DNA of 64,000 bases from an unicellular cyanobacterium SU2 (GTDB taxonomy: Bacteria > Cyanobacteriota > Cyanobacteriia > Cyanobacteriales > Microcystaceae), in assembly GCA_002110465.1 (NCBI GenBank), contig NEED01000009.1:62001-126000 (forward strand). Direction: 5' to 3'. Below are positions 17,689 through 23,416 of the stretch, piece after piece. Within the stretch, counting starts at the first letter, position 1. The number at the start of each line of letters is the position of its first letter. The position numbers and the translations under genes are program-made. The notes under the pieces were generated by a model. That model worked only from the letters and a program-made list of their open reading frames with translations. It made no database searches and was not told where the DNA came from.

Positions 17689-18890
17689 TTACGGATGAAT
17701 CAACGATATTCTCATATTAGTGGAATCAGAGTCTTGTTTTAAAGTTTTATAGATAGCGATCGCTGCTCGACTTGTCAAGTCCATTGCTGAATGAGAGTAA
17801 ATTAAAAAACGCAATCCATCTACAGTTTTTGAAGCCTTTTTCTTATTTTTGATGAAATTAACTGTTTGTTTAATCTCTTCCTCAATAAAAGTGGTTGAAT
17901 CATCGACTATGAGTGAATGGATATCTCCAGAATTAATATTAATTCCAGATTGAACTAATTCAGGTTCACTCTTATGTTGAGTTTTTTGGAATCTAATTCT
18001 ATCAATTCTCTCAAAGGAAAATAGTCCTTTTTTTTCTTCATCTTCTATCTCATAACCTAGGTACCAAGCAATATTATGAAAGACGATTTGTAAAGGATAA
18101 GCTCTAAAGGTTTGTTGTGGGGTATCAGTCCATTTTTTTCACATAAAAAAGGATAATAAATAATAAAACGAATCGTTTTAATTAATCGTTCAAACCTCTC
18201 TAAATCATGATAACGATGGCTAATTAAATAAGGAGAATCAATCGACTCCATTTCAACTCAATCAGCCCGAACGTTACCGCCCCCTAAAATACCATTTTTC
18301 TTTAACCAGTTTAAGTTTTTTTCAATGGCTTTTGGATCAGCATAAACCCGATCATACTTTTTAGTAATAACTGCACACATTTCTTCAATAGAAGTGGTAA
18401 ACTCTGGCAATTTTTCGATGCCTAAAATAACTTTTAAGGTTTCTAGTTCAGTTTCTGATAAATTCCCTAAGCCTGGATAATTAATAATAACTGACATCAA
18501 GTGCATTAATCGTTCAAAGTCTAAAAAACGAGAATATTGATGAAAATTTTTATTCTTATTTAAGTTGGCTTGATTAGCTAAAAGACGATTAAATCCTTTG
18601 ATAATTTTACGAATTTTAGAGAGATCGAAACTGTTTTCTGTAATCGAAATAGGATAAATCTTTAATAGTCCTTCGTTAGAGCTTGGGGGAGCGTTTTGTA
18701 AACAAGCATTCATCCGCTCAATCACCTCATCAGGAACTTGGCGATCACGTTTTTTATTTCTTTGTTTACATTGCTCAATTGTAACCTGTAAATGCCATCC
18801 GATCCATTGAATATTAAATAAATTAACTGTTTTATAAAGAAAATCAAGTCGGCACTGCCGCACAACATTTGTGGCATCGTAAATCACTGA
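17689..18890 (-). pseudogene. P-loop kinase-like/WYL-domain protein, decayed
   Basis: Read on the minus strand, the remnant starts inside a polynucleotide-kinase-like domain (VIYDATNVVRQ, then QVPDEVIERMNACLQNAPP). It runs through a middle region to an in-frame TGA at 18258-18260 and continues in the same frame as SPYLISHRYHDLERFERLI. It then shifts frame near 18110-18130 into a clear WYL domain (RAYPLQIVFHNIAWYLGYE… SFERIDRIRF) and ends at 17689. The P-loop that should precede DATNV is missing because the 5' end is cut off 22 bp from a CRISPR repeat. Such ATPase-WYL proteins accompany type III CRISPR loci in cyanobacteria as likely regulators. Confidence 0.8.
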
Positions 18891-18911
18891 TTGATCTTAA
18901 AGCCAACGGAG

Positions 18912-19021
18912 GTTTCCATTCAACTGATTTCTCTTAATAAAAGAGAGTTAGCCAACACTTTTGATTTAAGAATAAACCTTATTAAGTTTCCATTCAACTG
19001 ATTTCTCTTAATAAAAGAGAG
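18912..19021 (-). CRISPR. One-spacer CRISPR array (two identical 36-nt repeats)
   Basis: Two identical 36-nt direct repeats occupy 18912-18947 and 18986-19021, separated by a 38-nt spacer (18948-18985). Read on the minus strand, the repeat ends TTGAATGGAAAC, the typical 3' end of cyanobacterial repeats, giving the 8-nt crRNA handle ATGGAAAC, so transcription is probably leftward. An internal CTCTT/AAGAG stem is present. No cas1 or cas2 lies nearby and no clear AT-rich leader remains. The array sits between two genes that have both lost their 5' ends. Confidence 0.88.
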
Positions 19022-19745
19022 ATACTTCAAAGTGCTGAGTATCATCGATGTCTTGATAAAGCAATAAATTGGAGACAAAATAATGACACTATTGAGTTTG
19101 TTGCTACATCAGGAACCCCTGTTATGAAATTAGGATGGGGTATTTTACAAGCTTTAGGATATGCTTCCAATAGTCGAATATGGCAAGTCAGAAATCCTAA
19201 AACAATGAACAATAATCAAGAAAGAGTTTTAGCGAATAGTGTTAATGTTTTCAAGAATCAATCTGACTTTAGAATTGTTAGAAATCAACTACAAAATTAT
19301 AATTATAGTGGTGCATTAGCAACCCTAGAAAATAGTGAGTTGCATAGTCAAATCACTCAAGCTTTAATGGAATATGGTTATTATCGTTTAGCATTTGATT
19401 TTAAATCTGCTAGAGAAATTAGCCAAGATTATCAGCAAAAAATTAATCAAGAATTAGTCAATAATATTGATAAATTATATGATGAAAATATTCTAGAATT
19501 ATTACAAGAGGTTTATTATAAAGGAAACTACTTCACTAATCAAACAATTAGAAACTTATTGTCAGGTTAGAAATGGATTAGTACACCATCTTCAGGGAGT
19601 TTCTGAACTTGATGATGAAGAAAAAATTATCAAAACTATGAGAGAAATTCTCTCGTTAGTAAAATCAGATTTTCAAACAATCAACCCCTTTAATTTACTC
19701 AACGAACAAATTGTCAATCAATTAACACCATTAGTAAGAGGTTAA
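19022..19745 (+). pseudogene. CARF-HEPN (Csm6/Csx1-like) RNase, 5'-truncated and frameshifted
   Basis: An open frame runs straight out of the last CRISPR repeat. From 19022 it reads TIEFVATSGTPVMKLGWG, the ligand-binding-type motif of a CARF domain (TSGTPxM), then LGYASNSRIWQVRNP. The frame stops at 19570, but a second frame from about 19545 continues QVRNGLVHHLQGVSELDDEE to 19745; RNGLVH fits the HEPN catalytic motif R-x4-H. The N-terminal part of the CARF domain is absent. In type III systems such proteins are activated by cyclic oligoadenylate made by Cas10. The remnant ends 4 bp before cmr4. The ATG at 19124 is not the true start. Confidence 0.8.
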
Positions 19746-19749
19746 ACTC

Positions 19750-20670
19750 ATGAAAGACTTTCGACTTGGTTACTTATACAGCTTATCTCCTATTCATTGT
19801 GGAGGCGAAGGAGACTTAGGCAACATACTAGAAATTGCCCGCGAAGTCCACACTAATTTTCCTTATATTCCTGGTTCTTCTCTTCGAGGAAGCATTAGAA
19901 ATGAAGTAGAAATTCTTAATGCTAATACTGCTAATAATCTATTTGGGAAAGAACTCGATAATGAAGGACAAATGGGTGTACATCAAGTTTGGTTTGGAGA
20001 TGCGAGGTTATTATGGGTTCCCATGCGAACCATGGCCCTCAATGGTAGTACAGATATCTTTACTTGGGTGAGTTGTCATTCTTTGATTCGAGATCATGCC
20101 ATTGTCTCTCAGCTACCCTTTGTCAATTTTCCTGATTATGCTGTGGGGACTCGTAGAGGTAAGTATGTTGTTGCTGATGCTCAAATTGAGATATCAAAAC
20201 TTGATGATCAACAAAAACAAGCGATCGCCTTTTCAGGAGCGTTTCCAGACTCTCTAAAAGATTCCGTTAAACCCACTTGGGAAAGTAATCATATTGTTCT
20301 TCCTGATGCCGATTTTCAAGTATTAATGGAACATTCCCTTTGGACACAGGTAAGAAATAAAATCCAAGAAGATAGTAATGGAGCAAATCAAGCGGGGTCG
20401 GCTGAAGTTTTTTGGACAGATGTTTGTCTTCCCCGTGACACCATTTTTTACCTACCTTGGGGCTATAGTTTATCCACCGAGCATCCTATTACTTCTCAAG
20501 AACATCAACTTTTAATGGAAGTTATTACAGGATTAGTTCAAGTTGGAGGACAAGCTAATGTTGGCCGTGGATGGGTACAAAGTTGGGTTAATGATAATAC
20601 TTTTAACTTCAATCAAAATCAAAACCAAGGAACACCTGCTACCTTAGTAGCTTCTAGCAGCAACGGTTAA
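19750..20670 (+). CDS. cmr4: Type III-B CRISPR RAMP protein Cmr4
   Basis: The 306-aa RAMP protein has the Cmr4 layout: GYLYSLSPIHCGGEGDLG at the N-terminus, the conserved thumb-proximal FPYIPGSSLRGSIRNEVE at about residue 38, VWFGDARLLWVPMRT and the glycine-rich loop VGGQANVGRGW near the end. Cmr4 forms the backbone of the effector and cuts target RNA every 6 nt. In an alignment by eye, the slicer aspartate of the usual IDLPIxRE motif is replaced by Ile in GNILEIARE, so cleavage activity is doubtful. The frame is intact. Confidence 0.88.
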   Translation: MKDFRLGYLYSLSPIHCGGEGDLGNILEIAREVHTNFPYIPGSSLRGSIRNEVEILNANTANNLFGKELDNEGQMGVHQVWFGDARLLWVPMRTMALNGSTDIFTWVSCHSLIRDHAIVSQLPFVNFPDYAVGTRRGKYVVADAQIEISKLDDQQKQAIAFSGAFPDSLKDSVKPTWESNHIVLPDADFQVLMEHSLWTQVRNKIQEDSNGANQAGSAEVFWTDVCLPRDTIFYLPWGYSLSTEHPITSQEHQLLMEVITGLVQVGGQANVGRGWVQSWVNDNTFNFNQNQNQGTPATLVASSSNG

Positions 20671-20732: not shown

Positions 20733-21332
20733 ATGCCTAAAAAAAGTAAAAATAAACCCAAAAAATCTCATCAAAACCTGTCCTCAAAATCCGTTAAGAC
20801 GACAGCTACTCCTCCTACATCTAAACCAAATTTTTCATCTAATAAGGTAAACGCTATACCTCCTCAATCTAATTCAAATCCTCCATCTTCTATTACTGCT
20901 GTTTCTTCTGCGATGGTAAATTCGATGACTAATTCCCAAAGAGTTCAACCAGAACAAATGAGTTTATCGGCTCACGCAACTATTCAATCTTATCTGGAAA
21001 GGGCTAACCAAACCTATCTTTCTCAAGAAGATTTGAATGCCGTATTACGTTTATCTCAACATCTCAGAATTTTTGGTTTATTATCAGCCGTTGGCTATAT
21101 TAATCAATCTAATGATCAAGAAGGGAAAGTTCGTCAAAGAACCGTACCTGTTTGGCATTGTTTATTAGGAAAATTAATTGCACCAACCGAAGATTTAGAT
21201 CAAAGAGAATTGATGGATAAAATAGTTTCTTTAACCAAAGACACCCCCAGAGAATATATGGCTATGTGGCGTAAATCTTTAGTGCTAACACAGCATTGGA
21301 ATTTTTGGGCAAGAGCCTATTCTCAAGAGTAA
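20733..21332 (+). CDS. cmr5: Type III-B CRISPR protein Cmr5 with long N-terminal extension
   Basis: The last 120 residues are a Cmr5-type all-helical domain (LRIFGLLSAVGYINQSN… LIAPTEDLDQRELMDKIVSLT… PREYMAMWRKSLVLTQHWNFWARAY). Cmr5 is the small-subunit filament protein of the Cmr complex, normally about 130-150 aa. Here 199 aa include a low-complexity Lys/Ser/Pro/Asn-rich extension over about residues 1-75, probably disordered. The gene lies 62 bp after cmr4. The frame is intact, but its usual partners cas10 and cmr3 are not in the window. Confidence 0.85.
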   Translation: MPKKSKNKPKKSHQNLSSKSVKTTATPPTSKPNFSSNKVNAIPPQSNSNPPSSITAVSSAMVNSMTNSQRVQPEQMSLSAHATIQSYLERANQTYLSQEDLNAVLRLSQHLRIFGLLSAVGYINQSNDQEGKVRQRTVPVWHCLLGKLIAPTEDLDQRELMDKIVSLTKDTPREYMAMWRKSLVLTQHWNFWARAYSQE

Positions 21333-21490: not shown

Positions 21491-23416
21491 ATGTATACAG
21501 GTAATAAATTAATCGAACTCCTAGAAAAGCAACAAAAAAGCCGAGGACAATCTGATTTACTAAAAACAGGAACTTTTACCATTCAATGGCGTGCAAAAGT
21601 GGGGTCTTATCCTCATCCTGATGGAGAAACCATAATTTCTGCCGGCGAACCTTGTGGAAATTGGAAACATGATAATACTGAAAAACTTAATGTTGGAGAT
21701 AATTATCAAAAGTTTTCAGATTTACCTTTAATTGGGTATATTCCTGGGTCTTCAATTCGAGGTTTAGTTAGAGCATGGGCTAAAAAATATCCTGATAAAT
21801 ACCAACGAATGAATGAATTATTAGGCTATCAAGATGATGAAAAAATAACCCCTGGAAAAATTGAATTTTTAGATGCTTATCCTCAAGAAGCCACTCGTTT
21901 AACTTTAGACATCTCCAAAAATTTGTAAGCTTTTAATATAAAGCCTTTTGGGTGATATTGGCTTTGCGATCGCCAAACCCTGAAATCCTAATTTTTCGTT
22001 CAAAATGTCTTCTAATGCAATTTCAGAAAAAAAGATAAGGTTTTTAAATCAAAATTTTTTAGGCTAAAACTCAATCCTAACAACTCTTTAGGCTCTTAGT
22101 TTATATTTTGGAGATGTCTTTTAGATATTGTTAATCCTCAACAAGACTTTCAAGTGTTTCATAGAGGACAAAGTAAGCCTTTATCTTTTTATACATTAGG
22201 TGATGGAGAAGATAAAATCAAGATAACAGTTGGAATTCGAGGAATTCTTAACCAAACAACAGCAGAGGAAGTTCAAGAAGTTTGGGAATGGGTAGAACAA
22301 GCACTAAGTCTTTATGGGGTAGGAAGTCGTACAGCTTCAGGATATGGTGCGATTAAATCTGATAATAAACCTAAGCTAAAGCTTCCCAAAGATGAATCTA
22401 TCAAAATCTTTAACTTTACTTTGTATAGTCAAGGTTGCTATGGAGCTAATCAAAAAGATGACGTACAATTACGTCCTTCTCATTGGCGAGGTTGGTTACG
22501 TTCTTGGGTATGGCGTTTTCTTCTAGGTATTATGTCACAAGATAATGCTAAAAAAACTTTAGGAGAATTACTGGGAAACATCGATGATGACAATGGGACA
22601 AGTAATAAAGGTTGCGTTTGTTTAGAACTTATTAAAAACTCAACTTGGGGAGAAGGTTCTGATGACCAACCCAGGTTTTACACTTGGCAAGGGAAGCTTA
22701 AAATTACTGCCCCAAAAGATATTTTAAATAAGATTATTTTCCCCATTATTAAGTTTGCTGTTAGTGTTGGTGGAGTAGGTCGAGGTTGGCGTAGACCTTT
22801 ACATATTTTTCAGATGAATAATGGTCACAATGCTTCCAGGGGATGTTATCTCAAACTATCTCATAAAGTTAAAAATCCAAACACAGGAAAACCTCAGATT
22901 CGTGGGTATCAATTATCCCCTAATAAACCTGAAACTTGGTGGAATACCTATCAAAAATGACTTGAAGCTGTTCAAGAAAAATGGTCTGATAGATTTGATA
23001 TCAATGCGAATGAAAACTTAGAAGCTGAGGTCTTTTCTCCTACGACTTGTTCAATTTATGCTGTTCCTGGTCCAGATGATAATCCCATCAATGAATCTGA
23101 GCAAAACTGGCAAAACATTCGTCGTAATGAGGAAACTCGTGGGGATGGAATGAACCTCATTTACAAAGATAAATATAAGCGAAAAACTGATGTTGGTGGC
23201 AGTGCTGGTCATGGTAATGCTCATTGTTCTTGGGTGAGTATTAGAAGAGTGAAAGCTCCTCATCCAACCATTGAGACTAACTGTCAAGAAATTGTCTGTT
23301 TATTTATGGGAGGAAAATCCTCTGACCATAATCACTTACGTTCTCAATTTCTCAAAGATTTATCAGTAATTCCAGACTCAACGTTATTATTTGGACTCTC
23401 CCATCATCATCCCTAA
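21491..23416 (+). pseudogene. cmr6-cmr1-like double-RAMP gene, broken by a MITE and a stop codon
   Basis: The reading frame (21491-21928) starts with a Cmr6-like RAMP (IGYIPGSSIRGLVRAWAKKY) and is interrupted by a 213-bp element. It resumes at 22124 with DIVNPQQDFQVFHRGQ and a glycine-rich loop YGVGSRTASGYGAIK. A second RAMP follows that resembles Cmr1 (QLRPSHWRGWLRSWVWRFLLG, then SVGGVGRGWRRPL). A TGA at 22958-22960 ends it, but the same frame continues open to 23416 (LEAVQEKWSDRFDINANENL… RRVKAPHP). Removing the element and one copy of its target duplication gives 569 codons apart from the one stop. Neither intact half has been seen to be complete, so the protein is likely non-functional. 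Confidence 0.8.
21907..22119. mobile_element. 213-bp MITE inserted in the RAMP fusion gene
   Basis: Perfect 14-bp terminal inverted repeats AGACATCTCCAAAA (21907-21920) and TTTTGGAGATGTCT (22106-22119) flank 185 bp of non-coding DNA with one HIP1 site. The target duplication is TTT (21904-21906 and 22120-22122). No transposase is encoded. Deleting the element plus one TTT restores the codons ACT TTA GAT ATT GTT in frame, so this is a precise, recent-looking insertion. The parent insertion sequence is unknown; a 3-bp duplication and these ends suggest an IS5-related family, with low certainty. Confidence 0.9.

Follow-up and report, generated by a model that had tools for sequence, protein, structure and literature searches.

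The question raised by this locus is how a single repeat-spacer-repeat unit came to lie between two genes that point away from each other and are both truncated on the side facing it. In the preliminary description the arrangement was taken as the scar of a deletion between two CRISPR arrays. The analysis reported here does not support that reading; the two repeats are very probably the leftover of the locus's own array in a decaying type III-B (Cmr) locus. The positions of the features in the window (the whole stretch of DNA analysed, 64,000 nucleotides) are collected in Table 1.

Table 1. Features of the decayed locus, with their positions in the window.
Feature	Position	Strand	Basis or remark
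Kinase (AAA_33)-WYL pseudogene	17690-18896	-	tblastn with the intact 832-aa G040 protein; domains taken from the intact form
15-bp gap from kinase homology to repeat 1	18897-18911		Not homologous to kinase relatives; occurs once in the window
CRISPR repeat 1	18912-18947	-	Transcribed sense CTCTCTTTTATTAAGAGAAATCAGTTGAATGGAAAC; repeat family shared with type III-B relatives
Single spacer, 38 nt	18948-18985	-	No credible target
CRISPR repeat 2	18986-19021	-	Identical to repeat 1; would-be leader-proximal side; no leader there
CARF-HEPN (Csx1/Csm6-like) pseudogene	19022-19745	+	Alignment to 9 intact relatives; tblastn; PADLOC PDLC01806
cmr4, open	19750-20670	+	TIGR02580 (2.5e-24); Cmr4 models; 76% identical to Argonema antarcticum
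cmr5, open	20733-21332	+	PADLOC Cmr5 (7e-66)
cmr6 pseudogene	21491-23416	+	tblastn with the intact 570-aa cmr6 (residues 1-144 and 142-565); pieces match Cmr6 models
MITE-like insertion in cmr6, 211 bp	21908-22118		13-bp terminal inverted repeats GACATCTCCAAAA

The unit consists of two direct repeats (36 nt each, 36/36 identical, 74-nt spacing) around one 38-nt spacer, which agrees with the definition of an array as identical direct repeats of 23-47 nt with a unique spacer of similar length. No other exact 25-mer recurring at a spacing of 50-95 nt was found in the whole window, so that the pair of repeats is not a product of chance, and the two-repeat, one-spacer array of the preliminary description was confirmed. 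The repeat type GTTTCCATTCAA was aligned with the arrays of L054, L057, L174 and G110, and it belongs to a cyanobacterial type III-B family known from genuine multi-spacer arrays. A weak hairpin was predicted for the repeat, and a search of Rfam gave nothing meaningful. The orientation of the array was taken from the relatives with the order cas2-leader-array, in which the sense direction is ...GAATGGAAAC followed by the spacer; the repeats of the window are accordingly read on the minus strand. The leader would therefore be expected on the right, where CARF-coding sequence stands instead and abuts repeat 2 within 0-12 bp, with no leader beside it.

For the kinase-WYL gene, residues are numbered after the closest protein that is intact (G040, 832 aa). 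Homology begins at its residue 72, at window position 18896 and 15 bp from repeat 1, and the first 71 residues are gone, including the P-loop; the 15 bp in between may be a truncated spacer. The stretches aligned by tblastn correspond to residues 72-327 (73%, 18896-18129) and 740-829 (63%, 17970-17701), with about 165 codons deleted (about residues 328-496) together with a frameshift near 18130, a second large internal deletion (about 190 codons) near 17975 and an in-frame stop at 18258-18260. On the other side, the CARF frame is open straight out of repeat 2, and its homology (from residue 89 of 426 onwards) starts at 19022 according to BLAST and about 12 bp (four codons) later according to the PADLOC HMM; as the two starts differ, the 0-12 bp after repeat 2 are of uncertain origin. 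About 88 N-terminal residues of the CARF protein have been lost, as have about 85 internal ones (about residues 258-342), and a frameshift lies near 19522-19536, so that a complete CARF domain followed by a HEPN domain is no longer encoded; the 3' end is intact, with the HEPN motif and the stop codon. The gene stands directly 5' of cmr4, with a gap of 4 bp (19745-19750).

Relatives matching over their whole length are longer, mostly 675-832 aa for kinase-WYL and 416-449 aa for CARF, which establishes that both truncations are real, as had been proposed for the kinase-WYL gene cut off before its P-loop and for the CARF frame running out of repeat 2 with its N-terminus absent. The further lesions in both genes, i.e. 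the stop, the frameshifts and the deletions of roughly 85-190 codons each, had been left out of that account. These internal deletions indicate that ordinary deletions struck the locus repeatedly. Both repeats are undamaged although the neighbouring genes are heavily damaged, a contrast that counts against the decay of a native locus.

Recombination between repeats is a usual route of array shrinkage, and homologous recombination between the repeats of two arrays, leaving a scar of two repeats after one deletion, might also account for the disappearance of cas10 and cmr3. That mechanism removes only the sequence between the recombining repeats, so the outer flanks would be intact up to the outermost repeats. 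Here the coding sequences on both outer sides are truncated, at points beyond the outermost repeats, and the mechanism therefore fails; it would further require that kinase-WYL and CARF had each contained an array beforehand. Relatives were inspected for arrays next to each of the two genes: some of them (L169, L174 and L175) have a native array on the 5' side of kinase-WYL, whereas on the 5' side of CARF none was present in 25 loci. On the CARF 3' side an array was present in 19 of the 25 (18 of 24 distinct loci, as L069 and L181 are one locus counted twice). The scar of a deletion between two arrays is thus very unlikely. Arrays were also found directly upstream of cas10 in six further loci (L054, L056, L060-L062 and L073). 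An inversion of the normal CARF-array order was considered too and was rejected, since the orientation of CARF relative to cmr4 is unchanged.

The type III-B backbone genes cmr4, cmr5 and cmr6 are present to the right of the CARF gene, though cmr6 is broken twice, by the insertion at 21908-22118 and by an in-frame TGA at about 22958-22960. The MITE-like insertion may have given rise to a target duplication (TTTA); neither the window nor the retrieved loci contain a second copy of it. Among the cmr4 relatives, which were drawn from a named genome collection and a sample of the class, the order cas10-cmr3-cmr4-cmr5-cmr6 was found in every one with enough upstream sequence. In the window, cas10 (cmr2) and cmr3, both required in type III-B, are missing: a cas10 ortholog is absent from the locus and from the genome, where the one match, a distant one with 29% over about 239 residues, was on a separate contig close to another cas module, and cmr3 was absent in a search of the locus. 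That cas10 and cmr3 were lost from this locus, as already suggested in the preliminary description, is borne out by their position before cmr4 wherever the upstream sequence of relatives is available. The genome carries cas1 on three other contigs, and the arrays there have other repeats.

Since no complete Cmr complex can be formed without Cas10 and Cmr3, the locus is most likely inactive as an immune system now. A reduced yet working system, made of a minimal array and regulatory fragments, would fit with the open frames of cmr4 and cmr5; it is extremely improbable in view of the absent cas10 and cmr3, the broken CARF, cmr6 and kinase-WYL genes and the array without a leader. Three relatives from the genus have the same neighbouring genes but lack any counterpart of the island that runs from the end of the GTPase gene (17651) to about 24400, so the island was either acquired here or lost from those three.

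The spacer was searched against phages and plasmids, as had been suggested at the outset, and against IMG/VR and its own genome, and no credible target was obtained. Seed matches in IMG/VR (20-mer and 19-mer) were rejected as protospacers, because over the full spacer they had 13-14 mismatches, close to the 14-17 of shuffled sequences. The repeat had no match in IMG/VR and only a 20-nt match in plasmids.

Both truncations could also be explained by one event, i.e. a single deletion that fused kinase-WYL to CARF while repair took up, as filler, a repeat-spacer-repeat unit copied from another array. A similar unit adjoins a polyphosphate kinase gene without its last codon in G006, a genome of another species of the same genus. 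The window's own genome yielded no array that could have donated this repeat, just a single isolated copy of it (3 mismatches), and such a capture is unnecessary given the native arrays at this position in relatives; it is considered unlikely. The solitary copy (L052 7465-7500, equal to G000:C71:129464-129499) adjoins, from a reading of the translation, an apparent cas1-cas2 remnant that belongs to another CRISPR system (repeat ...GCCTTACGGCATCAAAGGTTGAGACAG), with no III-B genes beside it. The G006 unit (C3:4342777-4342890, equal to L109 9778-9891) sits between a LuxR-type regulator gene and the PPK2 (polyphosphate kinase) gene, whose product is without the final residue of its relatives and whose end is 7-10 bp from the repeat. 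Like the unit in the window, it has two repeat copies (with 1 and 3 mismatches to the repeat of the window) and one spacer; unlike it, the spacer is different, no cas gene is nearby and the neighbour is PPK2. It shows that one-spacer orphans without cas genes persist.

At least 7 lesions were counted within the 5.7-kb locus, and the history that would best account for them as the decay of a native type III-B locus is as follows. In the most likely ancestor, an array separated a kinase-WYL gene pointing left from a cmr operon pointing right, with cas10 and cmr3 presumably between the array and CARF. The array would have shrunk to one repeat-spacer-repeat unit, probably via ordinary recombination among its repeats, and illegitimate recombination would have produced at least two independent deletions that entered from the sides, the left one into kinase-WYL and the right one through the leader, cas10, cmr3, the 5' part of CARF and perhaps cas1-cas2, while further lesions hit the remaining genes. 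Both the sequence of these events and their mechanism are inferred. No close relative with an intact copy of the locus was found, so that the endpoints of the deletions cannot be read. Counting against the decay of a native locus, the ancestral order cas10-cmr3-CARF-cmr4 is undocumented among relatives: CARF stands before cmr4 in no relative fetched, cmr3 being the gene before cmr4 there and CARF following cmr6 when nearby. It is highly improbable that the right deletion was made by the adaptation integrase Cas1-Cas2, with a precise cut at the leader-repeat boundary joined to a site inside CARF and the start of the operon lost, to which the junction 0-12 bp from the repeat end and the G006 repeat unit near a shortened gene end would point.

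The locus is thus an ordinary genomic fossil and not a special scar. It carries little weight beyond annotation, as a case of cyanobacterial III-B decay in which two backbone genes can still be recognised along with the repeats, and as a warning that a repeat-spacer-repeat unit between truncated genes is by itself no evidence for recombination between arrays.

Full-length kinase-WYL and CARF genes occur in relatives in ordinary type III-B (Cmr) loci, two of which were compared with the window. In the III-B locus on the plasmid of Cyanobacterium aponinum PCC 10605 (NC_019777.1; G110, L043), kinase-WYL on the minus strand is likewise divergent from the cmr operon, CARF-HEPN is present, cmr4 is about 70% identical and the repeat is of the same family; unlike the window, the locus is complete, with cas10, cmr3 and full-length CARF and kinase-WYL genes, and its CARF and array lie downstream of cmr6. 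Cyanobacteria bacterium QS_4_48_99 (G109; L055/L111, L174) shares with the window a kinase-WYL gene on the minus strand, a 5' array matching in orientation and repeat family and a cmr4 of 74% identity, and differs from it by a complete cas10-cmr3-cmr4-cmr5-cmr6 together with cas1-cas2. One contig of this metagenome-assembled genome (L174) carries kinase-WYL (minus strand) with 800 bp from its 5' end to the array and breaks off within that array. The cmr contig (L111) opens with exactly the repeat of that array, followed by cas2 and cas1 (both minus strand), cas10 (plus strand), cmr3 and cmr4. Joined, the two contigs would give kinase-WYL (minus), array, cas2-cas1 (minus) and cas10-cmr3-cmr4-cmr5-cmr6 (plus), i.e. 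the layout of the window before deletion, and from this order the array between the kinase-WYL and cmr parts is probably native.
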